A stretch of DNA of 21,107 nucleotides from a virus, in the IMG/VR virus record IMGVR_UViG_3300047483_000702, positions 1 to 21,107 of that record; one strand, written 5' to 3'. The notes below the pieces were generated by a model. That model was not told where the DNA came from. It did no database searches and saw only the letters and a list, made by a program, of their open reading frames with translations. The translations under genes were made by a program, and so were the position numbers. The stretch's first letter is position 1, and every line of letters begins with the position of its first letter. Shown here piece by piece: positions 1-15,362 of this stretch.

Positions 1-176
1 GTGTAAGTTCCGGGGTTTAGAAATTGAGATGAGGCATTTCTGTAAGCTCCAGCGCCCCCACCGCCTCCGGTCTGAGCATTACCACCACCAGCACCGCCAG
101 CTACCACAAGGTAGTCGACAGTAATACCAGACGGGCCAAACGGCCCACCCATGACCATCAAAGTCATGCCGGTCAT
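1..176 (-). CDS. Glycine-rich tail-tip/adhesin-like protein, 3' end outside window
   Basis: The ATG at 174-176 opens a frame that stays open to the left edge, giving 58 residues. It begins MTGMTLMVMGGPFGPSG, then has VDYLVVAGGAGGG followed by a poly-glycine stretch and GAYRN. The DYLVVAGG...GGGGGAG pattern is the signature of glycine-rich domains found in phage tail fibres and receptor-binding proteins. The stop codon of the 1579-residue fibre gene and this ATG are separated by one base (TAACATG), and I see no Shine-Dalgarno sequence, so translation is probably coupled to the fibre gene. Methionines at residues 4, 7 and 9 are alternative starts. A long fibre followed directly by a glycine-rich protein resembles the gp37-gp38 pair of T-even phages, but homology to gp38 is not shown here. 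The family call is fairly secure; the exact role is inferred. Confidence 0.75.
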   Translation of the reverse strand, partial: MTGMTLMVMGGPFGPSGITVDYLVVAGGAGGGNAQTGGGGGAGAYRNASSQFLNPGTY

Positions 177-177
177 G

Positions 178-3100
178 TTAGCTCACACTCCCTGAAACAA
201 CACAGACTGTGCTGCTTATAAAAAATACTGTTGCAATGCCTCGAGTGGCCAGTGTCATTGTTGCTTTGTCAGTATCGGTGCCCGAAATATAAGCTGTAGT
301 GATTGAGCAAGTTATTGTGATATTGTTAGCTGTGTTGTTGAAGATAGAAATTGCGTCACCTTCGGCAAACGTTGCATCAGGGATGGTAATTGATCCACCA
401 GATCCAACTTGAACGTATTTACCTACATCACCGGTGGCAAGTGTATAAGAACCAGTTTTAGTTCCAACGGGTGGCACATTGCGATAGCCTAAAGTAGCAG
501 AGTCAGGCGGTAAAGTATAAGTATTTGTTCCTGCAGCCGCAGGTGCATTTAACGAAGCTGTACCACTAGTAGAACCAGCAATCTTTAAGTTGCCAGCAGT
601 AAATGTCTGAGCAGCAGAAAATGTTTGAACTACATCAGTCTTAGCTGTGTCGGCATCGTATGCTTGCACATCAGTACCAATGATTAAACCGAGATTAGTT
701 CTTGCATCAGCAGCCGTATTTGCACCTGTACCGCCTGCGGCAATACCAAGCACAGTATTTGCACTTGTATTACCTAAGGTTGGACTAGAAATATCGATCC
801 AATAATATCTTGAACCATCATATTGATATTCATATAATATGTCCGTAGATGTATTGTACCATTGATCGCCCGACACATTACCCGAAGTAGGAGGTGCAGT
901 ATTGGCTGTATAGGTATTAAATGCTGTTCCACTAGAACTAAATGCTGTGCCGTTACTGTAGAATATACCAGTACCCGAAATTACATAATTACTGGCTACA
1001 ATATTACTACTGATTGTTGCGTTAGTATTGACTGTTAAATTTACTACAGTAATATTAGCATTTGCATTTAGTGTTGTAGTAACTACGCCTGAGCCAAAAG
1101 TGCCTGTTGTACCTAATACAGCACCGTTTGAAGTCAACGCATTAACTGTTGCTGTTCCATTGGCATTTAATGTGCCAGTGTTCAGTGCAGTGGTTGTGGT
1201 ACTGGTTGTAAATGTACCTGTTGTGCCTGTCACACTACTGTTCGAAACTAAAGAATTTACAGTAGCAGTGCTATTGGCGTTTAGAGTTCCAGTATTTAAC
1301 GCTGAAGTAGTTGCACTGGTTGTAAAAGTTCCTGTTGTACCTGTTACCGCACCATTACTGGTTAGAGCATTTACTGTTGCAGTTCCGTTGGCATTTAGTG
1401 TGCCGGTATTCAATGCTGAAGTTGTGGTACTTGTGGTAAATGTGCCGGTTGTACCCGTTACTGCCCCATTTGACACCAAAGAGTTAACTGTAGCAGTACT
1501 ATTGGCATTCAGTGTACCCGTATTAAGAGCTGAAGTTGTTGTACTGGTTGTAAATACACCGGTTGTACCTGTTACTGCGCCATTGCTGGTTAAAGCATTT
1601 ACTGTTGCAGTTCCATTAGCATTTAGCGTGCCTGTGTTCAGTGCAGAAGTAGTTGTACTGGTTGTAAATCTTGCAGTTGCCGCACTTACTGCTGTTGTAA
1701 TTGTGGCATTTCCTGCTACCACATTCCCACCAACATAAATGTTACCGCCTATGCCAGCGCCACTATTACTGCCCAGGATCAGCGCACCTGTATTTACACT
1801 GGTGCTGCGTGTTCCATCTCCGCCTGTACCACCAGCTGGTTGGTCTCCTAGCAGTTGCAAATTACCAGTTTTGATATTTCCATAAACTGCGGTACTGTGG
1901 CTAATGACATTGGGGTCGTCGCCTGCTCCTGCACCATACCACTCTAAATTTTGCTCGTCATTGCTCCATATTAAAGCTGCATTATTGGCTGAAGTTTTCC
2001 AGTAATGTATTCTTAGACCAATATCTCTACCGTCGTCGCTGGTTGGTAATGTTAAGTTAGCATTGGTATGCAGCTCAATTAAATTATCCAAAACACTTAA
2101 ATTGTTTGCGCCATAAATGGTGGTATTGCCTGTAACTGTTAAGTTGCCAAGAGTTGTATTGCCTGTTACATTTAGTGTACCGCCCACATTTAAGTTTTTA
2201 GCAATGCCTACACCACCCGAAACAACCACAGCGCCTGAGCCTGTGCCTGAAGAATCAGTTGTGTTAGTGATGCTAGTGATTCCAGCAACACCCAATGTTG
2301 TGCCAATAGTTGCACTGTTATTAACTGTAATTCCACTGGCTGTGATATTGGCATTTGAATCAACTGCTCCGCTGGCAATACTGCCAGTGGTCACACCGGT
2401 TGTAAATGTGCCTGTAGCACCTGCGACAGCAGCTCCAGTATTACCAATTGTTGCTGCACTAACAGTTGCAGCCAAAATTGCAACACCAGCATTGCCAATT
2501 GTCGCAGCATTTACTGTGGCTGCAGTTATTGTACCATTCGCAGTTAAACTATTAACAGTGGCAGTTCCGTTGGCATTTAAAGAACCAGTATTCAACGTAG
2601 TTGTTGTTGTACTGGTTGTAAATGTACCAGTTGTACCTGTGACAGCACCGTTACTGGTTAATGCATTTACTGTGGCTGTGCCATTAGCGTTAAGCGAACC
2701 AGTATTCAATGCTGAAGTAGTTGTACTAGTTGTAAATGTTCCTGTTGTGCCTGACACTGCACCATTGCTGGTTAAGGCATTGACTGTAGCTGTGCCATTG
2801 GCATTAAGTGTTCCTGTAGCCAAAGCAGAAGTAGTTGTACTGGTTGTAAATGTACCAGTAGTGCCTGAGACAGCACCATTACTGGTTAAGGCATTAACGG
2901 TGGCAGTTCCGTTAGCATCTAGTGTTGAAGTTACAATTCCCGAACCAAAAGTACCAGTAGTACCACTTACTGCACCGTTACTAGTTAAAGCATTTACCGT
3001 AGCTGTTCCGCTGGCATTAAGTGTGCCAGTGTTTAAAGAATTAGTTGTAATGCTAGTTGCAACAGTAAGATTGCCAATAGTTACATTGCCACCAATGGTA

Positions 3101-4917
3101 GCATTGGCATTGACTGTAAGTGCTGCTACAGTGGCGTTGGCATTGCTGTTAAGTGTTCCAGCATTAACAGCAGCAGTAACAACACTGGTTGAAAATGTAC
3201 CTGTTGTTCCTGTAACTGTGCCGTTCGATGTCAACGCATTAACAGTGGCTGTGCTATTGGCATTCAATGTACCTGTGTTAAGAGCGCTAGTGGTTGTACT
3301 TGTAGTGAATACACCGGTGGTGCCAGTAACAGCGCCATTTGATGCAAGTGCGTTAACAGTTGCAGTTCCATTGGCATTGATTGCTCCAGTTGCTAAGTTA
3401 CTGGTAGTTACTTTGGTTGTAAAAGTAGCATCTGTACCTGTGAATACAGTTCCTGACACTGCACCATTGGATGTAACTGCTGCAACTGTAGCAGTTCCGT
3501 TAGCGTTAATGGCTCCTGTAGCCAAATTACTGGTAGTTACTTTAGTTGTGAAAGTAGCGTCAGTACCTGTAAATGTTGTGCCCGCGACAGCACCATTACT
3601 GGTCAAAGCATTTACTGTGGCTGTGCTGTTGGCATTTAATGTCCCAGTATTGACTGCCGCAGTAACTAAGCTGGTGGTAAATGTACCGGTGGTGCCTGTC
3701 ACTGTACCGTTACTGGCAAGACTACTAACTGTGGCTACGCCATTTGCGTTGATTGCGCCAGTGGCTAAATTGCTGGTAGTTACTTTGGTTGTGAAAGTAG
3801 CATCTGTGCCCGTAAAAGTCGTACCTGAAACTGCACCATTGCTGATTAGCGCACTTACTGTAGCGGTTCCATTGGCGTTGATTGCACCTGTTGCTAAGTT
3901 ACTGGTTGTTACTTTAGTGGTAAAGGCAGCATCTGTGCCTGTGAAAACAGTGCCACTTACTGCACCGTTGCTAGTTAACGCATTAACAGTTACTGTGCCG
4001 TTAGCGTTAATTGGCCCAGTGGCCAAATTACTTGTTGTTACCTTAGTTGTAAAGGCAGCATCTGTACCCGTAAAAGTCGTACCTGATACTGAGCCATTTG
4101 ATGTCAATGCGTTAACAGTAGCAGTACCGTTGGCGTTGATTGCACCTGTTGCTAAGTTGGCGGTAGTAACTTTGGTTGTAAATGTTCCTGTGTCACCAGT
4201 GATAGCCGCACCACTATTTCCAATAGTAGCAGCGAAAACACTAGCACCAACTAACGCAGCTCCTGTGTTACCGATTGTAGCAGCATTTACTGTAGCTGCT
4301 GTGACTGTAGTGTTTGATATTAAACTAGCAACAGTAGCAGTATTGTTGGCATTTAAAGTACCAGTGTTTAACGCAGCAGTTGTTGTACTGGTAGTAAATG
4401 TACCAGTTGTTCCTGATACAGCACCGTTTGATGCAAGTGAATTGACGGTAGCTGTTCCGTTAGCATTTATAGTACCAGTGTTTAAAGCTGAAGTGGTTGT
4501 GCTAGTTGTAAATGTACCAGTTGTTCCTGAAACTGCTCCATTACTGGTTAATGCATTTACTGTAGCTGTTCCGTTGGCATTTATAGTACCAGTGTTTAAA
4601 GCTGAAGTGGTTGTACTGGTTGTAAATGTACCAGTTGTACCTAAAACAGCGCCATTACTTACTAATGCATTGACTGTAGCTGTGCCATTGGCATTAATTG
4701 TTCCAACTACAAGATTATTACTGGTAATATTAGCGGTAAAAGTACTGGTATTAGCAAAGAGATTAGTAACATACAAGTTGCCGGCAATGCCTGCACCACC
4801 TGCTACCGTTAACGCACCTGTAGTTGTACTGGTGCTGGTAGTTGTACCGCTGACAATCAGATTAGTGTCTACTGTTGCATTACCATAGATTCTTGTGCCG
4901 CTTAATAATTTTGCCAT
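178..4917 (-). CDS. Giant repetitive tail-fibre-like protein, 1579 aa
   Basis: This is a probable trimeric tail or side fibre. Residues 1-65 hold a non-repeat start (MAKLLSGTRIYG) and one TGALTVAGGAGIAGNLYV motif. From about residue 72 to 855 run about 18 copies of a unit such as GTLNANGTATVNALTSNG, in 38- and 43-residue forms. A non-repetitive module shared with the 2395-residue protein follows (about 849-1070), then five more units (about 1076-1290). The C-terminal part has SGTGIFYSNGTAF, SGDQWYNTSTDILYEYQYDG, the widespread fibre motif GGTGANTAADARTNLGL, and a roughly 100-residue end domain after GYRNVPPVGTKTGSYTLATG that could carry the receptor-binding or trimerisation function. The protein is very rich in Thr, Asn, Ala, Gly and Ser and has few charged residues. 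A late-type promoter motif lies only 7 bases before the ATG and no Shine-Dalgarno is visible. The fibre role is inferred from motifs and context. Confidence 0.85.
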   Translation of the reverse strand: MAKLLSGTRIYGNATVDTNLIVSGTTTSTSTTTGALTVAGGAGIAGNLYVTNLFANTSTFTANITSNNLVVGTINANGTATVNALVSNGAVLGTTGTFTTSTTTSALNTGTINANGTATVNALTSNGAVSGTTGTFTTSTTTSALNTGTINANGTATVNSLASNGAVSGTTGTFTTSTTTAALNTGTLNANNTATVASLISNTTVTAATVNAATIGNTGAALVGASVFAATIGNSGAAITGDTGTFTTKVTTANLATGAINANGTATVNALTSNGSVSGTTFTGTDAAFTTKVTTSNLATGPINANGTVTVNALTSNGAVSGTVFTGTDAAFTTKVTTSNLATGAINANGTATVSALISNGAVSGTTFTGTDATFTTKVTTSNLATGAINANGVATVSSLASNGTVTGTTGTFTTSLVTAAVNTGTLNANSTATVNALTSNGAVAGTTFTGTDATFTTKVTTSNLATGAINANGTATVAAVTSNGAVSGTVFTGTDATFTTKVTTSNLATGAINANGTATVNALASNGAVTGTTGVFTTSTTTSALNTGTLNANSTATVNALTSNGTVTGTTGTFSTSVVTAAVNAGTLNSNANATVAALTVNANATIGGNVTIGNLTVATSITTNSLNTGTLNASGTATVNALTSNGAVSGTTGTFGSGIVTSTLDANGTATVNALTSNGAVSGTTGTFTTSTTTSALATGTLNANGTATVNALTSNGAVSGTTGTFTTSTTTSALNTGSLNANGTATVNALTSNGAVTGTTGTFTTSTTTTTLNTGSLNANGTATVNSLTANGTITAATVNAATIGNAGVAILAATVSAATIGNTGAAVAGATGTFTTGVTTGSIASGAVDSNANITASGITVNNSATIGTTLGVAGITSITNTTDSSGTGSGAVVVSGGVGIAKNLNVGGTLNVTGNTTLGNLTVTGNTTIYGANNLSVLDNLIELHTNANLTLPTSDDGRDIGLRIHYWKTSANNAALIWSNDEQNLEWYGAGAGDDPNVISHSTAVYGNIKTGNLQLLGDQPAGGTGGDGTRSTSVNTGALILGSNSGAGIGGNIYVGGNVVAGNATITTAVSAATARFTTSTTTSALNTGTLNANGTATVNALTSNGAVTGTTGVFTTSTTTSALNTGTLNANSTATVNSLVSNGAVTGTTGTFTTSTTTSALNTGTLNANGTATVNALTSNGAVTGTTGTFTTSATTSALNTGTLNANSTATVNSLVSNSSVTGTTGTFTTSTTTTALNTGTLNANGTATVNALTSNGAVLGTTGTFGSGVVTTTLNANANITVVNLTVNTNATISSNIVASNYVISGTGIFYSNGTAFSSSGTAFNTYTANTAPPTSGNVSGDQWYNTSTDILYEYQYDGSRYYWIDISSPTLGNTSANTVLGIAAGGTGANTAADARTNLGLIIGTDVQAYDADTAKTDVVQTFSAAQTFTAGNLKIAGSTSGTASLNAPAAAGTNTYTLPPDSATLGYRNVPPVGTKTGSYTLATGDVGKYVQVGSGGSITIPDATFAEGDAISIFNNTANNITITCSITTAYISGTDTDKATMTLATRGIATVFFISSTVCVVSGSVS
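1050..1690 (-). repeat. Distal array of fibre repeat units (about 5 copies)
   Basis: Five consecutive copies of a 38-residue (114 bp) unit of the type TLNANGTATVNALTSNGAV plus TGTTGTFTTSTTTSALN lie between the large shared module and the C-terminal part of the 1579-residue fibre. The last copy is changed to a TFGSGVVTTTL ending. Units alternate between NANG...NAL and NANS...NSL versions, so a two-unit (228 bp) higher-order period may exist. Confidence 0.8.
1708..2374 (-). repeat. Shared fibre module, copy A (about 222 codons)
   Basis: Copy A of a non-repetitive module that occurs three times in the window. It runs from SGAVDSNANITASG through GGVGIAKNLNVGGTLNVTG, GNTTIYGANNL, DNLIELHTNANL, DDGRDIG, HYWKTSANNAALIWSNDEQN and LEWYGAGAGDDPNVISHS to GAGIGGNIYVGGNVVAGN. 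Because of its richer amino-acid composition it looks like a folded domain set inside a repetitive shaft. The other copies are at 6626-7290 and 9632-10297. Confidence 0.85.
2375..4700 (-). repeat. Proximal array of fibre repeat units (about 18 copies)
   Basis: About 18 copies in tandem, mixing a 38-residue unit (ending TFTTSTTTSALN) with a 43-residue unit carrying an extra FTGTD and ending FTTKVTTSNLA. Two spots carry an inserted variant with VNAATIGNTGAA motifs (around 2420-2530 and 4190-4310). The sense strand is strongly constrained at amino-acid level, but codons differ from copy to copy. Confidence 0.85.
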
Positions 4918-4924
4918 AGTAGTG

Positions 4925-4932
4925 TATTTATG
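4925..4932 (-). promoter_or_regulatory. T4-type late promoter motif before the 1579-aa fibre gene
   Basis: On the minus strand this reads CATAAATA followed by C, one base different from the T4 late consensus TATAAATA. It lies in the 20-base gap between the LamG gene and the fibre gene, with 7 bases to the ATG. If transcription starts about 6 bases downstream, as in T4, the mRNA would have almost no leader. Confidence 0.6.
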
Positions 4933-4937
4933 GGATT

Positions 4938-5855
4938 TTAAATATTGAATCTACGCCTTTGGGCATTGAAATTTTGATTGACCTCGTCCGCAGTTAGTGC
5001 TCTGTTATAAATCCTAACTACAGCAATATCTCCAGGAAATAAGTTAGTTGAAGCAGTGGTATCGTCCCACCGACGAGCTATTCTTGTAACACCACCAGAA
5101 CTGGCTGTGCCTGTGTAGCTTACAGCACTGCCATTGGCTGTGCCATTTACATACTGCACTAAACTACTGCCATTATAAGTGCCAACAACTTGATACCAAG
5201 TATCTAATGTGGGCACAAAGCCAGCAGTGTTATGCCATGCCCCATCAAAGAACCCTATACATAAATTGTAGTCCGTTGGACTTTTATTTGTTCCAATACT
5301 GTAATTTAAGGCATTGCTTAAATTATATTGATTAGTTACTACACTGGTTACTTGCCCAGTTAAACTGGCATTGACTTTTACCCATGCTTCTGCGGTCCAT
5401 TTTGGCATATTGCCCAAATTTGTAGCAGTGTCTCCGTACTGTGTACTGCCTGGAACAAATTTGATATTACCCCCAGTAACTGCACTGCTGTAAGTAGGGC
5501 TATTGTACAGTGTAACATTGCTTTGACTGGTGCTGATATCCGACCAAGTTGCACCGGAGCCTGAATAGCTATTAGACTGCGCAGCATCTATCCAAAACTT
5601 CAAATTACCGTCGATCACTGGAGCTCCGGTTAATTCGTCAAAGATACCGCTTAATTGAACTGCGCCATTGGCAGCTATTCTACGGGCCACACTGCTGCCG
5701 GTTATAGTCACTTCGTCAAATTCGCCTGTAGCATAAACAGTATTTGCTATGGTGCTGCTAGCAAAACTGGTATTGCCGTTATAAGTTACTTCATCTATGG
5801 TACCGTTGACCAATAAATTTCCAGTATTGGTTAATCGTGTTGCTATTGTTGCCAT
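4938..5855 (-). CDS. LamG / concanavalin A-like domain protein, 305 aa
   Basis: Probably a carbohydrate-binding virion protein. Residues 1-82 contain three short repeats, GTIDEVT (18-24), GEFDEVT (44-50) and GIFDELT (70-76), spaced exactly 26 residues apart. From about residue 84 (NLKFWIDAAQSNSYSG) to the end is a LamG-type beta-sandwich pattern: WTAEAWVKVN, TLDTWYQVVGTYNGSS, VQYVNGTANGS, and the closing FPGDIAVVRIYNRALTADEV, which is typical of phage LamG_3-like domains. The ATG lies two bases after the stop of the 2395-residue gene, so the two are co-transcribed; no strong Shine-Dalgarno is visible. Its position between two fibre paralogues suggests a fibre-tip or adhesin part. Domain assignment is solid, ligand and location are inferred. 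Confidence 0.85.
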   Translation of the reverse strand: MATIATRLTNTGNLLVNGTIDEVTYNGNTSFASSTIANTVYATGEFDEVTITGSSVARRIAANGAVQLSGIFDELTGAPVIDGNLKFWIDAAQSNSYSGSGATWSDISTSQSNVTLYNSPTYSSAVTGGNIKFVPGSTQYGDTATNLGNMPKWTAEAWVKVNASLTGQVTSVVTNQYNLSNALNYSIGTNKSPTDYNLCIGFFDGAWHNTAGFVPTLDTWYQVVGTYNGSSLVQYVNGTANGSAVSYTGTASSGGVTRIARRWDDTTASTNLFPGDIAVVRIYNRALTADEVNQNFNAQRRRFNI

Positions 5856-5857
5856 AA

Positions 5858-8800
5858 TTATCCAAACACTGTATCTATACTATTGGTTGCACTGTTATAG
5901 ATTTGATATGCTGCACTGGTTGTGTTAGCACTGTAAGTAAATCCAATTCTATTGTTACTGTAGACATTGCCACCAGTGGTTAAAATATTTCCAGTTACTG
6001 TCAGTGTTGTGCCAACTGTAGCTGCGTTGTTAACTGCTAGACTGCCGGCAGTAATGGCTGCATTGGAATTAATGGCTCCACTAGCAATACTACCTGTAGT
6101 TACACTAGTAGTAAATGTTCCTGTAGTACCGCTTACAGCACCGTTTGAGGCTAAAGCGTTAACAGTTGCTGTACTATTAGCATTTAGTGTACCTGTGTTC
6201 AATGCTGATGTAGTTGTGCTAGTAGTAAATGTTCCAGTAGTTCCAGATACTGCACCATTACTGGTCAATGCATTTACTGTGGCTGTGCCATTAGCATTAA
6301 TTGTACCAGTTACTAAAGAATTAAATGTACCTGTACCAGTTCCTGTAAAAGTCGTGCCGGATACTGCACCATTACTGGTCAATGCATTTACAGTGGCTGT
6401 GCTGTTGGCATTAATAGCACCTGTTGCCAAGTTGGCAGTAGTTACTTTGGTGGTAAAAGTAGCATCTGTACCGGTAAATGTTGTGCCACTCACTGCACCA
6501 TTGGATGTAACTGCTGCAACTGTAATAGTACCGTTGGCGTTAATTGCGCCTGTTGCTAAATTGCTTGTGGTAACTTTAGTAGCAAATATGCCTGATACTG
6601 CTGTTACTGCTGTAGTTATAGTAGCGTTACCTGCAACTACATTACCACCTACATAGATATTTCCGCCAATTCCGGCGCCACTATTACTGCCTAAAATTAA
6701 AGCACCAGTTGAAATACTAGTACTGCGAGTACCATCACCACCTGTACCACCCGCTGGCTGATCACCTAACAGTTGTAAATTACCTGTTTTGATATTTCCA
6801 TAGACAGCGGTACTATGACTAATGACATTGGGGTCGTCACCAGCGCCAGCGCCGTACCACTCTAAGTTTTGTTCGTCGTTGCTCCATATTAAAGCTGCAT
6901 TATTGGCTGAAGTTTTCCAGTAATGAAATCTAATACCAATATCACGACCATCATCACTGGTTGGTGTAGTTAAATTGGCATTAGTATGTAATTCAATTAG
7001 GTTATCTGATATCGCAAGGTTGTTGGCGCCGTATATTGTAGTATTACCAGTTACAGTCAAATTGCCAATAGTAGCATTACCAGTTACATTAAGTGTTCCA
7101 CCAACATTTAAGTTTTTAGCTATGCCGACACCACCAGAAACAACTACTGCACCAGACCCGATACCCGATGACTCTGTTGTATTTGTAATTGTTGTTGCAC
7201 CATCAACACTTAATGTTGTACCAATTGTAACTGAATTATTAACTGTTATACCGCCGGCAGTGACATTGGCATTTGAATTAATTGCACCAGAATTTATAGA
7301 ACCTGTAATTACACTGTTTGTGAATGTTCCTGTTGTGCCACTTACAGTACCATTGGATACCAGTGCATTTACAGTGGCTGTGCCATTGGCATTAATAGTA
7401 CCTGTGTTAAGTGCTGAAGTGGTTGTACTGGTTGTGAATGTACCAGTGGTACCTATTACAGCACCGTTACTGGTTAAGGCATTAACTGTGGCAGTTCCAT
7501 TGGCATTAATGGCACCAGTTGCTAAATTACCAGTTGTTACTTTGGTATCAAATACACCAGTATCACCAATTACTGCTGCGCCAGTATTACCAATTATAGC
7601 AGCGTTAACTGTAGTAAATGCACCGGTACTGGGTGTTGCATTACCAATTGGAGTATTTTGAATTCCTCCGCTGACTGTTGCTGAAGCATTTACTGATAAA
7701 CTTTGTATAGTTACTGCGCCGTTGGCATTAATTGCGCCTGTAGCTAAGTTACTGGTAGTTACTTTTGTAGTAAATGTTGCTTCAGTGCCTGTGACCGCAC
7801 CGTTGCTGGTAAGTGTATTGACAGTTACTGTGCCATTGCTGTTAATTGCGCCTGTTGCTAAATTACTGGTTGTAACTTTTGTGGTAAATGTTCCTGTGTC
7901 ACCGGTGATAACAGCACCAGCATTACCAATTGTTGCAGCATTCAATGTCTGAATAGCTACTGTAGTGGGCAAACTTAATACAACATTACCTGTTGTTGGA
8001 CTTGCTGTAATTTGATTTGCAGTACCTGTTACACTGGTTACAATTCCGCTAGGTAAAAATGCAGTACCGTTGGTATAAAAGATTCCAGTACCAGAAATTA
8101 TATAGTTACTTGCTGTTATATTACCGCTGATGGTAGCATTGGCATTTACAGACAGACCGGCTGCTGTAATGTTTGCATTGGCGTTTATTGCGCCAGTGGC
8201 CAAATTGGCTGCAGTTACTTTGGTAGTGAATGTAGCATCTGTACCTGTAAACACTGTGCCGCTTATTGCAGCATTACTGATTATATTACCGCCAGTGATA
8301 TTGCCAGTAGCTGTAAATGTTGTTGCTGAAATAATATTGGCGCCAGTAATATTGCCACCTGAGCCAGTAGTAGAAATATTGCCACCAGTTATATTACCTG
8401 TTGCGGTAACGGCACCGTTACTAATTAAATTTCCGCCACTGACATTACCAGTAGCACTTATCAAACCTGCTGTACTTAAATTGCCACTTGTAATATTACC
8501 AGTAGCTGTAATTGTTGTATTGCTAGTTAAACTGGCTACAGTTACAGTGCTATTGGCATTTAATGTGCCTGTATTCAGCGCACTTGTTGTAGTACTGGTA
8601 GTAAATGTACCAGTTGTACCTGTTACAGTACCGTTACTGGTTAAAGCATTGACAGTAGCAGTTCCATTGGCATTTAGTGTGCCGGTATTAAGTGCGGAGG
8701 TTGTTGTGCTGGTAGTAAAGGTACCAGTTGTACCTGTAACAGCACCGTTACTGGTTAAGGCATTGACTGTAGCAGTTCCATTGGCATTGATTGCGCCAGT

Positions 8801-11800
8801 AGCTAAATTGCTAGTAGTTACTTTGGTTGTAAAAGTAGCGTCTGTGCCTGTGAAAACAGTTCCCGATACCGAACCGTTGGATGTAATACTTGCGACAGTA
8901 ACTGCTCCATTTGCATTGATAGCACCAGTCGCTAAGTTGCTGGTTGTTACCTTAGTAGTAAATGTAGCATCTGTTCCTGTGAATACCGTACCGGTAACAG
9001 CACCATTACTGGTTAAAGCATTCACAGTGGCTGTGCCATTGGTATTAAGTGTTGCAGACTTTAAAGTAGTAGTTGTTAAACTGTTGGTAAATGTTGCATC
9101 AGTACCTGTGAATGTAGCGCCCGATACTGTGGTATTAGATGCTAAACTAGCCACAGTAACAGTACTGTTAGCGTTGATAGTACCTACAGCCAACGAACTA
9201 GCAATAGCTGTTGTTGTAAATGTTCCAGTAGTGCCAATAATAGCACCGTTGCTGGTCAAGCTGCTGACTGTCGCGGCTCCATTTGCATTAATAGCACCAG
9301 TTGCAAGATTGCTGGTAGTGACTTTGGTTGTAAATGTTCCAGTAGTGCCTGTAATGTCTGCGCCAGTAATGGCTGCATTGCTAATTAAACTGGCTACTGT
9401 GACTGTGCCATTGGCGTTAATAGCGCCAGTAGCAAGGTTAGCTGCCGTTAATTTAACTCCAATTGTAGCATTGTTTGCAGTCAGTGTATCTGTGGTTGTT
9501 GTTCCGTTGACTGTTAGAGTTGCTGCAGTTACAGTACTGTTGGCATTTAATACACCAGTTACTACATTGCTGGTAGTCATTCTTGTAGCAAAAGAAGCAG
9601 TAGTGCTTGTAATATCTGTTAGTGCTGTGACATTACCTGCAACTACATTACCACCTACATAGATATTACCGCCAATACCTGCACCACTGTTGCTGCCTAA
9701 AATTAGTGCTCCGGTTGAAACGCTGGTACTACGAGTTCCGTCACCACCTACACCGCCTGCAGGTTGCAGTCCAACAAGATACAAATTACCAGTTTTAATA
9801 TTTCCATAAACAGCAGTACTATGACTGATAACATTGGGATCATCACCTGCCCCGGCGCCATACCATTCTAAATTCTGTTCATCATTTGACCAAATCAGTG
9901 CCGCATTGTTAGCTGAAGTTTTCCAGTAATGAATTCTAATACCAATATCACGGCCGTCATCACTGGTTGGTGTGGTTAAATTGGCGTTGGTATGTAGTTC
10001 AATTAAATTATCTGATACAGCAAGATTATTAGCACCATAAATTGTGGTATTGCCAGTTACTGTTAAGTTTGCTAATGTAGTATTTCCTGAAACTACAAAT
10101 TCTCCACCTACATTAAGATTCTTAGCTATACCAACCCCACCGGATACTACTAACGCACCTGTTGTAGTACCTGATGAATCTGTTGTGTTTGTAAAGATTG
10201 AAGCGCCTGCTACAGACAAGGTAGTACCAACTGTAGCACTGTTGTTAATAGTTAAACCAGATGCAGTGATATTGGCATTGGAATCAACTGCGCCTGATTG
10301 TAAACTGCCAGTGGTTGTGCTGGTTGTAAATGTACCAGTTGTTCCTGAAACGGCGCCATTACTGGTTAAAGCATTTACTGTTGCAGTTCCGTTAGCATTG
10401 ATAGTGCCAGTAACCAATGAATTAAATGTAGCCTGACCTGTGCCAGTAAAGGTAGAACCTGTATGTACTGCACTAGCATTACCAATGGTTGCAGCACTTA
10501 TACTTGCACCTGTAAAGGCAGCTCCTGCGTTACCAATTACAGCAGCATTGACTGTTGCAGCTGTTACTGTGGCATTAACAGTTAAATTTGCTACTGTAGC
10601 TGTGTTGTTAGCGTTTAGTGTTCCAGTATTAATGGCACCAGTAGTTGTACTGGTTGTAAATATACCAGTTGCGCCCGTTATCGCTGCACTGGCATTGCCA
10701 ATAATTGCTGCATTTAATGTACCAGTTACAATATTACCTGCGACTGTTAAGTTACTGGTTTGTTTATCAAATGTTAAATTACTGTTACCAGATATTAAAT
10801 TGTTATCATTGAATAGAACTTGTGTATTGGCACCAGGTGCTGTAATATTCCCTGTGATATTACCAATTATATTACCAATAAAATAAGGGGCAGAAACATT
10901 CCCAGACAGTGATGCTGTTCCTAAAACAGTTACGCCTGTGGAACCAAATTCAGCTACATTACTGGTTCCTGCTACACTTATAGCGACATTAGCGTTGGCA
11001 TAGACTTTGACATTGCTAGTGCCATTACTAATTTGACTAGGAGTACCAACACTAGTACCGTCGATGACAAACTGGCCGCCTTGTGCATTGGTAATAACAA
11101 CTGCTGTGGCATTGCTGGTAATTGTACTGGTATCCAAATAGATACTGTTACCACTTAAGAACAAGTCTTTGAATCTACTTGCTGTTGAACCTAAATTATA
11201 AACAGCATTAGCACTGGGTGTAATATTACCGCCAACTGTAACTGCTCCGTTTACTGTAAGCGCATTAACTGTGGCATTACCTGACACACTGATTCCTGAA
11301 AATACAGGAGTATCACTGGTACCAATTCCTAAATCAACTTCATAAGTTGTGCCTGCACTGGTAGAAATAGTTAAGTTACCAGTAGTAGAATTATAAGTTA
11401 CATTACTTACACCAGCAACATTGGTTGTAGTTGCACTGGTAATTCTACCTTTGTCATCTACTGTTATAACAGGAACGGTACTAGCGTTTCCGTAAATACC
11501 TGCTGTAACACCGCTGGTAGGTAAATTGGTTGATCTAATAACAGCATTACTGTCGATGACTGTGTTGCCCGCTATTTGCAGAGAATTAACATTAGCAAAT
11601 CCTGCGCTGGTAATATTTGCAAAACTTACGCTATCTGCTGTACCTACGCCTAAGTCAACTGTAAAGTCTGTGCCTGCACTGGTACTAACTGTTAAATTGC
11701 CTGAAGTATTATTATATGTTACATTACTGACACCGGCTACATTAGTTGTAGTAGCAGCAGTGATGCGGCCTTTGGCATCAACTGTTATAACAGGTACTGC

Positions 11801-13045
11801 ACTGGCATTACCATAACTGCCTGCTGTTACACCTGAATTAGGCAAATTAGATGATCTTATTGTAGCATTACTGTCTATTACAGTATTACCTGCAACCTGC
11901 AGTGTGTTTACATTGGCGTAACCAGTTGTGGTCAAATTAACAAAAGTAGGACTGTCACTGCGGCCAACACCAATGTCTACAGTATAGTCTGTGCCGTCGC
12001 TGCTTTCAATGGTTAAATTACCAGACTGACTGTCGTAACTAACATTACTGATCCCGCCAACAGGTACACCATTAATCAATAAGTTACCATTGTAACCAAT
12101 GTTAGCGCCATTTAAAAATAATTGGCTACCAATATAAGCATTGGCAAATACACTTGAATTAGTTCCTAAACTGTGAGTAGCATTTGCATTAGGAATTAAT
12201 GTTCCTGTTACATTCCCCCAATCGGTTTGACTTATTGGGGCATATGGTTGACCGTTTGGATATAAAAATGCACTAGCAACAACATTGCCGTTGGTAATTA
12301 CATAATTGTAAGCAAATAAATTATTTGCTACAATATTACCGTTAGCTGTAATTGCATTACTTTGGATGACATTGGCATTTACACTGACTCCATCATTACC
12401 AAAGAATGTATAAAGTTGTGTAAAATTTTCATTGATCTTAATAAAAGCACTGTAAACAGTGTCACCTGTTTGAGTGTCGGGTCCGTCACCGATGTCAATG
12501 ATCTGTTGACCGCTTGAAGCAACTAAGTTGGCATTTGCTGTAATTGCGCCGTTGCCTGCTGTGCTTTGTAAGTAAAGATTAATTGTTCTTGTGCTGGCCT
12601 GTCCATAGGCCGTATTGGTTTCACTGGTAGTGCCCAGTCCTAATATAGCATATAAATTAGTAAAATTTCCATTGACTTTGGTAAAGGCATCAAATACTGT
12701 GTCGCTGGTCTGTGTATCTGCTCCTACACCAACATTAACAGTTAGCTGAGCGTTTGCAAGCGTATTTCCTGACAGGGTAATGCCAGCATTGCTTTGAAAA
12801 TCTGTCCATAATATAGTAAAGTTATTGTTGATTTTAATAAAAGCTTCACGCACAGTGTCACCGTCTACTGTGCCTATACCGTTGCTTAGATTAATAACTT
12901 GGAATTCAGTGTTGCCTGCAAAATCATCGGGAAACACAGCGTAGATTTCGGCAAAATTATTATTACACTTAATAAATGCTGATCTAATTGTATCGCCTGA
13001 TGCTACAAAACTGTTTGTACTAAGATTAATAATTTCCTGAGGCAT
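5858..13045 (-). CDS. Giant modular repetitive fibre-like structural protein, 2395 aa
   Basis: By far the largest gene in the window. Residues 1-215 carry four copies of a GDTVxxAFIKINxNFxxLY motif (about 17-35, 62-80, 113-132, 193-212). Next come two full copies and one partial copy of a segment with VSNVTYNNTSGNLTVS, NTVIDSNA and VPVITVDAKGRITAATT (about 326-590), then the fibre motifs NLGSTASRFKDLFLSGNSI (about 613-636) and GANTQVLFNDNNLISGN (about 737). From about residue 770 it consists mostly of the same 38/43-residue units as the 1579-residue paralogue, interrupted by two copies of the 222-residue shared module. It ends with YNSATNSIDTVFG, an ending I recognise from structural proteins of aquatic T4-like phages. 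It has a late-type promoter 22 bases before the ATG. A tail-fibre or other surface-fibre role is inferred; a cleaved polyprotein is possible but unsupported. Confidence 0.85.
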   Translation of the reverse strand: MPQEIINLSTNSFVASGDTIRSAFIKCNNNFAEIYAVFPDDFAGNTEFQVINLSNGIGTVDGDTVREAFIKINNNFTILWTDFQSNAGITLSGNTLANAQLTVNVGVGADTQTSDTVFDAFTKVNGNFTNLYAILGLGTTSETNTAYGQASTRTINLYLQSTAGNGAITANANLVASSGQQIIDIGDGPDTQTGDTVYSAFIKINENFTQLYTFFGNDGVSVNANVIQSNAITANGNIVANNLFAYNYVITNGNVVASAFLYPNGQPYAPISQTDWGNVTGTLIPNANATHSLGTNSSVFANAYIGSQLFLNGANIGYNGNLLINGVPVGGISNVSYDSQSGNLTIESSDGTDYTVDIGVGRSDSPTFVNLTTTGYANVNTLQVAGNTVIDSNATIRSSNLPNSGVTAGSYGNASAVPVITVDAKGRITAATTTNVAGVSNVTYNNTSGNLTVSTSAGTDFTVDLGVGTADSVSFANITSAGFANVNSLQIAGNTVIDSNAVIRSTNLPTSGVTAGIYGNASTVPVITVDDKGRITSATTTNVAGVSNVTYNSTTGNLTISTSAGTTYEVDLGIGTSDTPVFSGISVSGNATVNALTVNGAVTVGGNITPSANAVYNLGSTASRFKDLFLSGNSIYLDTSTITSNATAVVITNAQGGQFVIDGTSVGTPSQISNGTSNVKVYANANVAISVAGTSNVAEFGSTGVTVLGTASLSGNVSAPYFIGNIIGNITGNITAPGANTQVLFNDNNLISGNSNLTFDKQTSNLTVAGNIVTGTLNAAIIGNASAAITGATGIFTTSTTTGAINTGTLNANNTATVANLTVNATVTAATVNAAVIGNAGAAFTGASISAATIGNASAVHTGSTFTGTGQATFNSLVTGTINANGTATVNALTSNGAVSGTTGTFTTSTTTGSLQSGAVDSNANITASGLTINNSATVGTTLSVAGASIFTNTTDSSGTTTGALVVSGGVGIAKNLNVGGEFVVSGNTTLANLTVTGNTTIYGANNLAVSDNLIELHTNANLTTPTSDDGRDIGIRIHYWKTSANNAALIWSNDEQNLEWYGAGAGDDPNVISHSTAVYGNIKTGNLYLVGLQPAGGVGGDGTRSTSVSTGALILGSNSGAGIGGNIYVGGNVVAGNVTALTDITSTTASFATRMTTSNVVTGVLNANSTVTAATLTVNGTTTTDTLTANNATIGVKLTAANLATGAINANGTVTVASLISNAAITGADITGTTGTFTTKVTTSNLATGAINANGAATVSSLTSNGAIIGTTGTFTTTAIASSLAVGTINANSTVTVASLASNTTVSGATFTGTDATFTNSLTTTTLKSATLNTNGTATVNALTSNGAVTGTVFTGTDATFTTKVTTSNLATGAINANGAVTVASITSNGSVSGTVFTGTDATFTTKVTTSNLATGAINANGTATVNALTSNGAVTGTTGTFTTSTTTSALNTGTLNANGTATVNALTSNGTVTGTTGTFTTSTTTSALNTGTLNANSTVTVASLTSNTTITATGNITSGNLSTAGLISATGNVSGGNLISNGAVTATGNITGGNISTTGSGGNITGANIISATTFTATGNITGGNIISNAAISGTVFTGTDATFTTKVTAANLATGAINANANITAAGLSVNANATISGNITASNYIISGTGIFYTNGTAFLPSGIVTSVTGTANQITASPTTGNVVLSLPTTVAIQTLNAATIGNAGAVITGDTGTFTTKVTTSNLATGAINSNGTVTVNTLTSNGAVTGTEATFTTKVTTSNLATGAINANGAVTIQSLSVNASATVSGGIQNTPIGNATPSTGAFTTVNAAIIGNTGAAVIGDTGVFDTKVTTGNLATGAINANGTATVNALTSNGAVIGTTGTFTTSTTTSALNTGTINANGTATVNALVSNGTVSGTTGTFTNSVITGSINSGAINSNANVTAGGITVNNSVTIGTTLSVDGATTITNTTESSGIGSGAVVVSGGVGIAKNLNVGGTLNVTGNATIGNLTVTGNTTIYGANNLAISDNLIELHTNANLTTPTSDDGRDIGIRFHYWKTSANNAALIWSNDEQNLEWYGAGAGDDPNVISHSTAVYGNIKTGNLQLLGDQPAGGTGGDGTRSTSISTGALILGSNSGAGIGGNIYVGGNVVAGNATITTAVTAVSGIFATKVTTSNLATGAINANGTITVAAVTSNGAVSGTTFTGTDATFTTKVTTANLATGAINANSTATVNALTSNGAVSGTTFTGTGTGTFNSLVTGTINANGTATVNALTSNGAVSGTTGTFTTSTTTSALNTGTLNANSTATVNALASNGAVSGTTGTFTTSVTTGSIASGAINSNAAITAGSLAVNNAATVGTTLTVTGNILTTGGNVYSNNRIGFTYSANTTSAAYQIYNSATNSIDTVFG
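6000..6625 (-). repeat. C-terminal array of fibre units in the 2395-aa gene
   Basis: About five units of the 38/43-residue family lie between shared module B and the C-terminus. One shortened unit contains FTGTGTGTFNSLVTG instead of the usual middle. The last unit runs into a partial fourth copy of the start of the shared module (SGAINSNAAITAGSLAVNN), which is cut off before its GGVGIAKNLNV part. Confidence 0.75.
6626..7290 (-). repeat. Shared fibre module, copy B
   Basis: Second copy of the roughly 222-codon module, from SGAINSNANVTAGG to NIYVGGNVVAGN. It shares a 47-base exact match with copy A of the other gene (6879-6925 against 1961-2007), while further upstream in the coding direction it matches copy C better, around DDGRDIGI and NANLTTPTS. 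Confidence 0.85.
7291..9631 (-). repeat. Central array of fibre units in the 2395-aa gene
   Basis: A mixed array of 38- and 43-residue units with two departures. At about 8280-8510 a compact run of short GNITGGNISTTG-like and ATGNITSGNL-like steps replaces the long unit. At about 7930-8130 a segment with ISGTGIFYTNGTAFLPSG and TANQITASPTTGNVVLSLP resembles the C-terminal side of the 1579-residue fibre (about 940-1020). Confidence 0.75.
9632..10297 (-). repeat. Shared fibre module, copy C
   Basis: Third copy of the roughly 222-codon module, from SGAVDSNANITASGL to NIYVGGNVVAGNV. It differs from A and B in the middle (GEFVVSGNTTLANL; NLYLVGLQPAGGVGG) and at many synonymous sites in the ALIWSNDEQN stretch. 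Confidence 0.85.
12410..12997 (-). repeat. Four GDTxxxAFxKxNxNF repeats, N-terminal part of the 2395-aa protein
   Basis: Four copies of a roughly 20-residue motif: GDTIRSAFIKCNNNFAEIY, GDTVREAFIKINNNFTILW, SDTVFDAFTKVNGNFTNLY and GDTVYSAFIKINENFTQLY, spaced 46, 51 and 80 residues apart. Several are preceded by an acidic G-rich lead such as VGADTQT or GDGPDTQT. The pattern is known from structural proteins of aquatic T4-like phages. It may anchor the fibre to the virion, which is inference. Confidence 0.75.
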
Positions 13046-14029: not shown

Positions 14030-14602
14030 TTATTTAGTTAATTCCGTATAATCCTCTTTCATAAACTGCATTCCTGTCCTAAACATAGGCCAATCAAATT
14101 CCCCGTCATTTTCCAACATTAAGCGCCATGCTGTGGGTCTTGCACTACTATAAAAATTATCTAGTGTGTCTAAACTAAAGGGTTGTATTTCTTGTGTTCT
14201 AATATTAATCCACTTTTTCTCAAATCTGCTCAATCCTTTGATAACCTCTTGCATGTCCTTAGAATGTATATCTCCTAAAATTAGTGGGCTCTTATTCAAT
14301 CGAGTTTTAAAAAACCATAATACCTTAGAAAATATTCGTTGTCCTCGGTAGTCAGGATTTACCCATACCCCATCGACTTCGTTGCCCCCAATCAAAGCCG
14401 CAAACGCCACAACAGTATCTTTATCCCATAGTGTATATAATAATGCGCCGGGTAATTGTTCCGAATCACTTACTTTGACCTTAAACTGTTCTATATCAGC
14501 AATGTGTTTACCTGTTTGCCATTTTTCTGCGTTATCATTGGCCAGTTTATTAGCTAGATCATTGTAATCTGGACCACGCATGGTCATTTCTTGGATTTTC
14601 AT
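14030..14602 (-). CDS. GNAT-like N-acetyltransferase, 190 aa
   Basis: Probably a small GCN5-related acetyltransferase using acetyl-CoA. The sequence VDGVWVNPDYRGQRIFSKVL (residues 76-95) matches GNAT motif A: a beta strand, then V-x-P-x-Y/F-R-G-x-(R/G) followed by a helix. ALLYTLWDKDTVVAFAALIG (53-72) fits the preceding pair of beta strands. The usual Q/RxxGxG/A loop is degenerate here (YRGQRIF), so activity is not certain. The ATG is one base after the stop of the homing endonuclease, so the two are co-transcribed. The upstream signal (AAAGAAAG) is weak; Met6 or Met8 are possible starts. Substrate unknown: a virion or host protein, or a small molecule. It is not part of the conserved T4 head cluster, so it is likely an accessory cargo gene. 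Confidence 0.75.
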   Translation of the reverse strand: MKIQEMTMRGPDYNDLANKLANDNAEKWQTGKHIADIEQFKVKVSDSEQLPGALLYTLWDKDTVVAFAALIGGNEVDGVWVNPDYRGQRIFSKVLWFFKTRLNKSPLILGDIHSKDMQEVIKGLSRFEKKWINIRTQEIQPFSLDTLDNFYSSARPTAWRLMLENDGEFDWPMFRTGMQFMKEDYTELTK

Positions 14603-14603
14603 A

Positions 14604-15362
14604 TTATGCTTTCTTTTTGCAATTGTCGCCGTGCCAACGGGCGTATCCGTTTACTGCAACCAATTGTTGACAATGGGGACACTGTTTCTTTTGGCGTTTT
14701 GACCCACGAATAGCGTCTGCTTTTTTCTTTTTTGTTTCTTCTGACTGTGTGCGACCAATAGCTTTTTCTCGCATTTTTTGTTTTGTTTCTTCACTTAGTG
14801 AACCGTCAAATCCCGGCTGTTTACTTTTGTGGTTATTAGATAAATTTTGTTTCCATTCTTCGGTAAATGGATTCCTGGTTTTACCTTTTTTACTATTGGA
14901 TATTTTAATTCTTGACTGTTTTTGTTTGCTACCGTTTTTATCTCCAATGACAGACATTCTTTGAGATTCTTTTCCTACTTCACTTCTATAAAATTTATCA
15001 CCGTACATTGGATTATTTTCTCCAGAAATCTTTTTGCTTTGTAATTTAGAATATTCATCTTTTAAGTTTGCATAGACTCTAGATGTAATCTTTGTTTTAT
15101 ATCGTTGTTGACAGGGGTTTTCAGCCCGCATCATTCTAAATGCATTAATCATTTTCCAATGTTCTTCGCCAACTGGATATATTTTTGTTAACAACCAATG
15201 GCAGATAAAATGTTCCCTTGCCGTTAATTTAGTTAGATTACTTGCATCGTTTGTCCCACCTAAACTTTTAGGTACAATGTGATGTATTTCTGTATATTCT
15301 TCAGTAATACGAGATTGGGCAGATTTGATTATATTGTTGTACCAATTTTTATATTTGTTCAT
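14604..15362 (-). CDS. HNH homing endonuclease with NUMOD3 repeats, 252 aa
   Basis: A free-standing HNH endonuclease of the kind that cuts related phage genomes lacking it and thereby spreads. HNH core: EIHHIVPKSLGG (His27, His28), Asn42 in DASNLTKLTAREH, and His51/His55 in REHFICHWLL. The middle holds NUMOD3-like DNA-binding segments: SGENNPMYG (113-121), GDKNGSKQKQSRIKISNSKKG (start 140), SLSEETKQKMREKAIG (188-203) and SEETKKKKADAIRG (207-220). The C-terminus has a possible zinc-binding knuckle with Cys228, Cys231, His244 and Cys248. It lies directly after the capsid terminator, a common insertion area for such genes in T4-like phages. A perfect TATAAATAC motif sits 5 bases before the ATG, and no Shine-Dalgarno is visible. 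Confidence 0.92.
   Translation of the reverse strand: MNKYKNWYNNIIKSAQSRITEEYTEIHHIVPKSLGGTNDASNLTKLTAREHFICHWLLTKIYPVGEEHWKMINAFRMMRAENPCQQRYKTKITSRVYANLKDEYSKLQSKKISGENNPMYGDKFYRSEVGKESQRMSVIGDKNGSKQKQSRIKISNSKKGKTRNPFTEEWKQNLSNNHKSKQPGFDGSLSEETKQKMREKAIGRTQSEETKKKKADAIRGSKRQKKQCPHCQQLVAVNGYARWHGDNCKKKA

Follow-up and report, generated by a model that had tools for sequence, protein, structure and literature searches.

The virus record IMGVR_UViG_3300047483_000702 of IMG/VR, whose full length of 21,107 bases is the stretch analysed here (the window), carries on its minus strand a group of T4-like head genes (portal, maturation protease and the gp23 major head protein). Downstream of these the gene order is homing endonuclease, GNAT-like gene, a gene of 242 amino acids (aa), gene 2, a LamG-like gene and gene 1. 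Genes 1 and 2 encode two very long putative fibre or virion structural proteins, and they are mostly composed of tandem units of 114 and 129 bases, equivalent to shaft repeats of 38 and 43 residues. The repeats are interrupted by a domain of 222 residues, hereafter the module, which is present once in gene 1 and twice in gene 2. The genes and module copies, with the evidence that defines them, are as follows.

178 to 4917, minus strand: gene 1, putative fibre or virion structural protein of 1579 aa, shaft repeats and one module (A); open reading frame (ORF), tandem units, syntenic counterpart at 2059-5853 of contig L006
5858 to 13045, minus strand: gene 2, putative fibre or virion structural protein of 2395 aa, shaft repeats and two modules (B and C); ORF, repeats, C-terminal counterpart at 3-569 of L006
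1708 to 2373, minus strand: module copy A, 222 codons; alignment
6626 to 7291, minus strand: module copy B, 222 codons; alignment
9632 to 10297, minus strand: module copy C, 222 codons; alignment

The original prediction, made from the letters of the window, had already located the three copies in the two genes, with coordinates that are right to within one base (A ends at 2373 and B at 7291), and had described their products as almost the same protein. The three copies align without gaps across all 222 codons, and at the protein level the description holds, with identities of 90.5% (A-B), 88.7% (A-C) and 86.0% (B-C). The DNA is far from the same: nucleotide identity is 77.8%, 73.4% and 76.7% for the same pairs, and at third positions it falls to just 41-51%. 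Where two copies encode the same amino acid, the codon is identical at 100 of 201 positions for A-B, 81 of 197 for A-C and 93 of 191 for B-C, against 85.1, 83.3 and 80.7 expected from codon usage. Likelihood profiles over the grid tried reject a synonymous divergence (dS) of 1.08 or below for A-B, A-C and B-C, twice the log-likelihood difference (2dlnL) being 39.5, 66.2 and 28.3 at 1.08. As yardsticks, gp23 of the window against that of contig L008 fits a dS of 0.93, and residues 101-305 of the LamG-like protein against L006 fit 1.08; an ordinary synonymous rate is possible for the module itself, judging from one orthologous pair in contigs L107 and L108 that fits 0.5-0.75. The copies are at or near synonymous saturation and are old paralogues. 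Since synonymous sites are saturated between all of them, a simple recent duplication of the module is excluded. The same phage is represented by another contig record, L005, which over 16,227 bases differs from the window at 2 sites, both close to position 14,370 inside the GNAT-like gene and neither within A, B or C; its identical copies speak against misassembly, though it possibly stems from the same sample as the window.

Exact tracts between the copies

On this saturated background two exact tracts stand out, the longer of which tops the seven exact direct repeats of at least 30 bases in the window.

1961 to 2007, minus strand: 47-base exact tract in A, codons 123-137, HYWKTSANNAALIWS; exact-repeat scan, codon-run tests
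6879 to 6925, minus strand: the same 47-base tract in B; exact-repeat scan, codon-run tests
6627 to 6661, minus strand: 35-base exact tract in B, common to C (NIYVGGNVVAG); exact-repeat scan
9633 to 9667, minus strand: the same 35-base tract in C, common to B; exact-repeat scan

The original prediction had singled out the 47-base stretch as exact between A and B and divergent in C, and this is what the alignment holds: C equals A at 37 of the 47 sites. It had also noted that B and C agree just beyond the tract where A differs, and ACCAATATCACG (6935 in B, 9941 in C) and TCATCACTGGTTGGTGT (6951 and 9957), both read on the plus strand, are indeed present in B and C only. When matches are permuted among codons for the same amino acid, the 15-codon identical run of A and B has a probability of 0.0009; if codons are instead drawn independently, a run of at least 15 codons arises in one or other of the pairs with p=0.0012. 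For the 11-codon run of B and C the corresponding values are 0.009 for that pair and 0.023 for at least 11 codons in any pair. With the longest run removed, 85 of 186 codons are identical for A-B (77.4 expected, z 1.17), 75 of 191 for A-C (79.6, z -0.7) and 82 of 180 for B-C (76.0, z 0.94). Outside the longest runs the silent matches are therefore at the random level, and it is one short exact block that stands out; the A-B run is longer than the background of the alignment predicts, the local identity by which gene conversion between paralogues is judged.

The sites that are informative about pairing (79 for A-B, 50 for A-C and 72 for B-C) are unevenly spread across six bins of the module (permutation p=0.0026), and the same test on silent codons gives p=0.013. 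Uniform identity along the module for each pair, together with a simple duplication tree, was looked for and is not what is seen. The patchiness exceeds chance moderately. The exact 47-mer occurs in IMG/VR only in the near-identical contig behind L005, at both its copies. No family-wide constraint on the DNA of the tract is apparent, because L006 and L008 differ from A at many silent sites inside this region.

Relatives in other phages and the central segment

A scan of IMG/VR with copy B yielded 175 stretches encoding a relative, of which the best 80 were retained; among these, close copies of the conserved core (73-100%) are found only in contigs L005-L013. L006 shares the gene order of the window, with the end of gene 2, the LamG gene and a single-module counterpart of gene 1, whereas L008-L013 have one module copy each, in a 3710-aa gene downstream of gp23; in L010, L012 and L013 the contig stops inside this gene. 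A profile scan yielded 35 loci, and an iterated profile was run over 174 loci (without L001-L004, plus the window); with near-identical contig loci skipped and identical sequences collapsed it gave 54 distinct long module hits, including the three window copies. For the trees 19 of the 54 were dropped, one of these as a near-duplicate and the rest as weak or distant. A pattern scan of genome contigs returned 38 pattern matches with no relative among them, and phage records gave no match at 1e-5 for copy B, the only window copy used as query, and none at 0.01 for the copy in contig L106.

The cores of A, B and C are 93.5-94.9% identical among themselves, and those of L006 and L008 are 74-78% identical to them. 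The difference to L006 is mostly central. The L006 copy matches A, B and C at 85-91% over residues 85-137, at 49% (20 of 41) over residues 138-178 and at 84-88% beyond, and the central drop has a Fisher p of 1.4e-5 versus B and C and 2.6e-4 versus A. L010, of the L008 group, scores 74-75%, 80% and 67% over the same three stretches. The two parts of the module conflict in the trees. Residues 85-130 place A, B and C with L006 (100/96, starred) and a grouping with the L008 group is rejected by the approximately unbiased (AU) test (p-AU 0.013); residues 131-174 place A, B and C with the L008 group (96/95, starred). From the segment identities and trees, the following stretches look like a segment that is exchangeable between phages.

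1852 to 1983, minus strand: residues 131-174 of copy A, segment apparently exchanged in related phages
6770 to 6901, minus strand: residues 131-174 of copy B, the same segment
9776 to 9907, minus strand: residues 131-174 of copy C, the same segment

The same central segment seems to have been swapped in a distant phage contig, L099, where four modules lie in two neighbouring genes (88-2535 and 2591-11935). Its copy at residue 2709 resembles its three sisters in the flanks (69-83% and 62-83%), and in the centre the identity is 49-51%; the nearest central segment is that of L103 (65%), and the three sister copies are outside the six best. A tree of the central segment that keeps this copy beside its sisters and L094 is rejected (p-AU 0.024). 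Two other L099 copies, at 409 and 1794, repeat the picture of the window, with 88% aa identity and 86 of 187 codons matching where 72.8 are expected.

Module copies in two genes of one contig were also found in L098, L099, L102, L103, L107 and L108, and these six were included in a within-genome run test; they are six of ten multi-copy contigs, the other four (L023, L045, L093 and L105) having distant second copies. None of the seven contigs examined, the window included, holds a recent DNA-identical duplicate of the module. In L107 and L108 the copies track orthology, with 95% and 79% aa identity between the phages and 38-42% between the two kinds, and a tree constrained to unite the two copies of L107 is rejected (p-AU 2e-8). 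The same constraint on the four copies of L099 or the pair of L098 is not rejected (p-AU 0.175 and 0.152).

Concerted evolution at the protein level was considered for the window and set aside. The core identity of 94% for A-B versus 74% for A-L006 becomes 89% versus 85% over residues 85-137 alone. In the protein tree neither a pair of A and L006 (p-AU 0.072) nor a group of A, B and C (p-AU 0.375, at a cost of 0.64 log-likelihood units) is rejected; the partner of B in the best tree is L006 (79/51). Silently, A is as distant from its syntenic L006 copy as from B and C (dS of 1.08 rejected, 2dlnL 67.6). The genes common to the window and L006 are themselves patchy: in the LamG gene (572-2038 in L006, where it has about 180 extra residues close to the N-terminus) residues 1-100 are saturated and residues 101-305 have a dS of about 1, while dS is about 1 for residues 1-50 of gene 1 and about 2 for the C-terminus of gene 2. 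The overall distance between the two phages is therefore uncertain, and non-orthology of A and the L006 copy is accordingly not claimed.

The domain and its gene neighbourhood

The module is a form of a structural-protein domain that is common among T4-like phages and cyanophages. In an alignment of 46 members (A3), three of which are the window copies, 37 members match phrog_697, a 'structural protein' of the head and packaging category (best 5.3e-32); the match of copy B on its own is weak (6.9e-8), with its best stretch at residues 5-89, in the arm. Further matches are to 'head decoration protein' (phrog_3018, nine members) and 'baseplate wedge tail fiber protein connector' (six), and PHROGs named tail fibre or short tail fibre match one or two of the 46 members each. 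Genes 1 and 2 as whole proteins have no PHROG match at 0.01, and their whole-protein Pfam scores were taken as repeat artefacts: Aegerolysin in gene 1 is above the cut-off with no single stretch passing, and Phage_sheath_1C in both genes is below it. A tblastn search with an L099 module (E limit 0.01) hit 122 Synechococcus, Prochlorococcus or cyanophage records; the 30 listed are 32-39% identical and mostly annotated as structural protein, with four 'YadA domain-containing'. The resemblance to structural proteins of T4-like cyanophages such as Synechococcus phages ACG-2014g and Syn30 lies in the profile matches of the module set and in these tblastn hits; copy B differs in having no phage record at 1e-5 and only the weak phrog_697 match.

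A structure model built from the 46 sequences has a mean predicted local distance difference test (pLDDT) score of 82.3, with three strands within residues 118-148 and long extended arms on either side, as might be expected of a chain that needs partners. Matches in the viral library (23 of any name at E<=0.001) include some named tail fibre or major tropism determinant N-terminal domain. No Protein Data Bank (PDB) entry matches the module at E<=0.001, and a search by sequence gave no relative there either (best E value 0.16). Structural comparison with the PDB in VIA-align gave weak matches, the three highest being to phage spike proteins (Z 3.0-3.6), headed by endosialidase NF residues 766-910 (Z 3.6, root-mean-square deviation 4.3, 122 residues aligned); monellin, clathrin and other unrelated chains in lower rows were taken as chance. 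One of the 46 members matches the endosialidase family End_beta_barrel of Pfam (1.8e-7). Endosialidase and spike stalks of this kind are trimers. The original prediction called genes 1 and 2 fibre genes, and the repetitive shaft and fibre-like fold matches make this plausible; the name stays unproven, as the best PHROG says just 'structural protein', head and packaging.

Between the two genes lies one further feature that is conserved in position.

4938 to 5855, minus strand: LamG/concanavalin-like gene, 305 aa, Pfam Laminin_G_3 (3.5e-17), same position in L006 and L176

In L176 the LamG relative (5022-5915, 46%) is flanked by genes with long collagen-like QGxQG repeats (1-5019 and 5959-10983), the second of which begins like gene 1 of the window. 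Here the N-terminal anchor seems to have been kept and the type of shaft changed, suggesting from sequence comparison that shafts are swapped too. Long plus-strand open frames run antisense to the fibre genes, for instance 2117-4888 (923 aa) and 8130-9662 (510 aa); such frames reflect how the codons of the repeats are patterned and most likely are not genes.

The gp23 of the window is 65-70% identical to that of phages of 285-469 kb among the 20 records listed of 2493, which include Vibrio phage 2.275.O, Sinorhizobium phage Phosso and PA5oct. Directly downstream of gp23 a homing endonuclease is encoded at 14604-15362 on the minus strand (phrog_655, 8.1e-48; Pfam NUMOD3/HNH), followed between the head and fibre genes by a GNAT-like acetyltransferase gene with weak matches (14030-14602, minus strand). 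In the equivalent place L009 has, among ORFs of at least 150 aa, one of 272 aa on the opposite strand (phrog_15334, of unknown function), followed by the 3710-aa gene, and by this comparison the homing endonuclease gene of the window may be an insertion. Such an enzyme could in principle drive co-conversion nearby; the modules are, however, 4-13 kb distant.

Readings of the mosaic

The reading that we favour, and regard as fairly probable, is that the modules are old paralogues of a fibre domain which have undergone short-patch recombination both between the copies and between phages. Genes 1 and 2 would encode long, fibre-like and probably trimeric virion proteins of a T4-like jumbo phage, the fibre role and the trimer being inferences. 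Each protein would be a shaft of 38- and 43-residue repeats interrupted by one or two 222-residue domains, each predicted to form a small beta sheet between two extended shaft-like arms. The old copies would be under strong purifying selection, for their DNA has reached synonymous saturation and 86-91% of the protein is still shared. At least one later short-patch exchange would have occurred between A and B (47 bases), with a possible further one between B and C (35 bases), and the central segment (residues ~131-174) would have been replaced by exchange from phage to phage. The copies, their saturation, the tracts and the conflict of the segments are observed, and recombination is the likeliest cause of the patchiness.

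The original prediction of gene conversion between the two genes is thus borne out in part: the exact A-B block speaks for it, and conversion between A and B is plausible on the basis of that one tract. Several observations weigh on the other side. A contiguous 20 of the 47 tract bases are also present in C, so that the tract is partly not specific to A and B, and six 3SEQ-like breakpoint tests over all sites gave best p values of 0.011 and 0.017, none of which survives correction; on silent codons the best value, 0.030, is likewise lost. In the six other contigs only one of 13 within-genome pairs has a significant identical run (in L103, p=0.017), which is about chance level, and conversion as a general habit of the module family was discarded for this reason. 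One sister contig spans the position of A in full and none spans those of B and C. With regard to the central segment, the boundaries were set after viewing the alignment and the Fisher and AU p values of the segments are optimistic. For residues 131-174 a grouping of A, B and C with L006 is disfavoured yet unrejected (p-AU 0.199). In the best tree of residues 85-130 the copy of L099 at 2709, its sisters and L094 form no clade, though their grouping is unrejected (p-AU 0.163). The L006 central segment has no close donor, its best matches still being A, B and C (56%), and relaxation or an adaptive burst in this segment could mimic replacement. The PHROGs matched are in part head ones (phrog_697 and phrog_3018), so the virion location of the fibre-like proteins is putative. 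On balance, the sequence comparisons support mosaicism between phages better in the module family than conversion within a genome.

It is a tentative possibility that the patchiness was imported, with A, B and C arriving, whole or in part, from different phages rather than converting between two genes, an explanation that overlaps with the second half of the favoured one. Exchange of segments between phages is the best-supported mosaicism of the module family, the intervening LamG gene shows patchiness of its own, and A is no closer silently to its syntenic L006 copy than to B and C, all of which fits import. The exact 47-base tract on a saturated background points instead to a late event, and the 47-mer has turned up in IMG/VR in the same phage only, although phages outside the collection could carry it. 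More doubtful is the view that no exchange took place within the genome, and that old copies under purifying selection drifted randomly in their codons, leaving the tract to chance or local constraint. It agrees with the random silent matches of A-C and the only somewhat higher ones of A-B and B-C, with the weak breakpoint tests and with the 12 of 13 pairs that lack a significant run elsewhere; a 15-codon run in any pair, however, arises in just 0.12% of independent draws, and the silent differences of L006 and L008 from A in the tract leave a family-wide constraint on its DNA without apparent support. Very improbable is a selection that keeps the DNA of the copies apart by silent recoding, since recombination of the phage would delete long identical repeats. 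High protein identity with near-random codons in the window and L099, and the want of recent DNA-identical duplicates in the seven contigs, would suit it, but silent matches are at the random level and not beneath it, and in each of 12 sets, among them the two window genes combined, exact repeats of 12-21 bases are more numerous than the average of synonymous shuffles, strongly so in most. L006 is only slightly above its shuffles (81 versus 59, standard deviation 18, at 12 bases). Avoidance of DNA identity between copies is accordingly unsupported.

The short-patch reading that we favour describes modular fibre evolution of a known kind, with useful detail. Domain duplication is found in the T4 adhesin. 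The long tail fibre proteins gp37/gp38 of T4 and the C-terminal modules of fibritin resemble the present case as fibrous virion proteins that evolve by module swaps; here the unit lies inside the protein and occurs several times in a genome, beside capsid genes, and the likeness is one of mode. The gp37/gp38 modules are described as often shuffled and those of fibritin as swapped long ago (Letarov and Krisch 2013, PMC3797505). Gene conversion between paralogues offers a similar picture, two otherwise divergent copies sharing a short exact tract, with the difference that there is one clear tract of 47 bases here, the copies are not homogenised and the tests are modest. Literature searches on phage fibres (gene conversion, concerted evolution, repeats, shuffling of modules), which were not specific to this domain, showed no report of it among the papers seen, PMC8594841, PMC2853527 and PMC3797505 included.

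The central face of the domain would probably be exposed on the shaft and serve for binding. An unlikely, more far-reaching idea is that the domain serves as a platform with an interchangeable face, residues ~131-174 being passed as a cassette between copies and between unrelated phages while the flanks are conserved, so that a virion with several copies would be reshuffled by short-patch recombination as a passive diversity system. With synonymous saturation as a clean background, it can be seen how small an exchange between repeated fibre domains may be and still be detected, and the unit that is swapped between phages is indicated to be a defined stretch of about 40 residues. If this holds true in sister genomes, it would provide a concrete place to seek the binding surface of the long uncharacterised proteins of T4-like jumbo phages.

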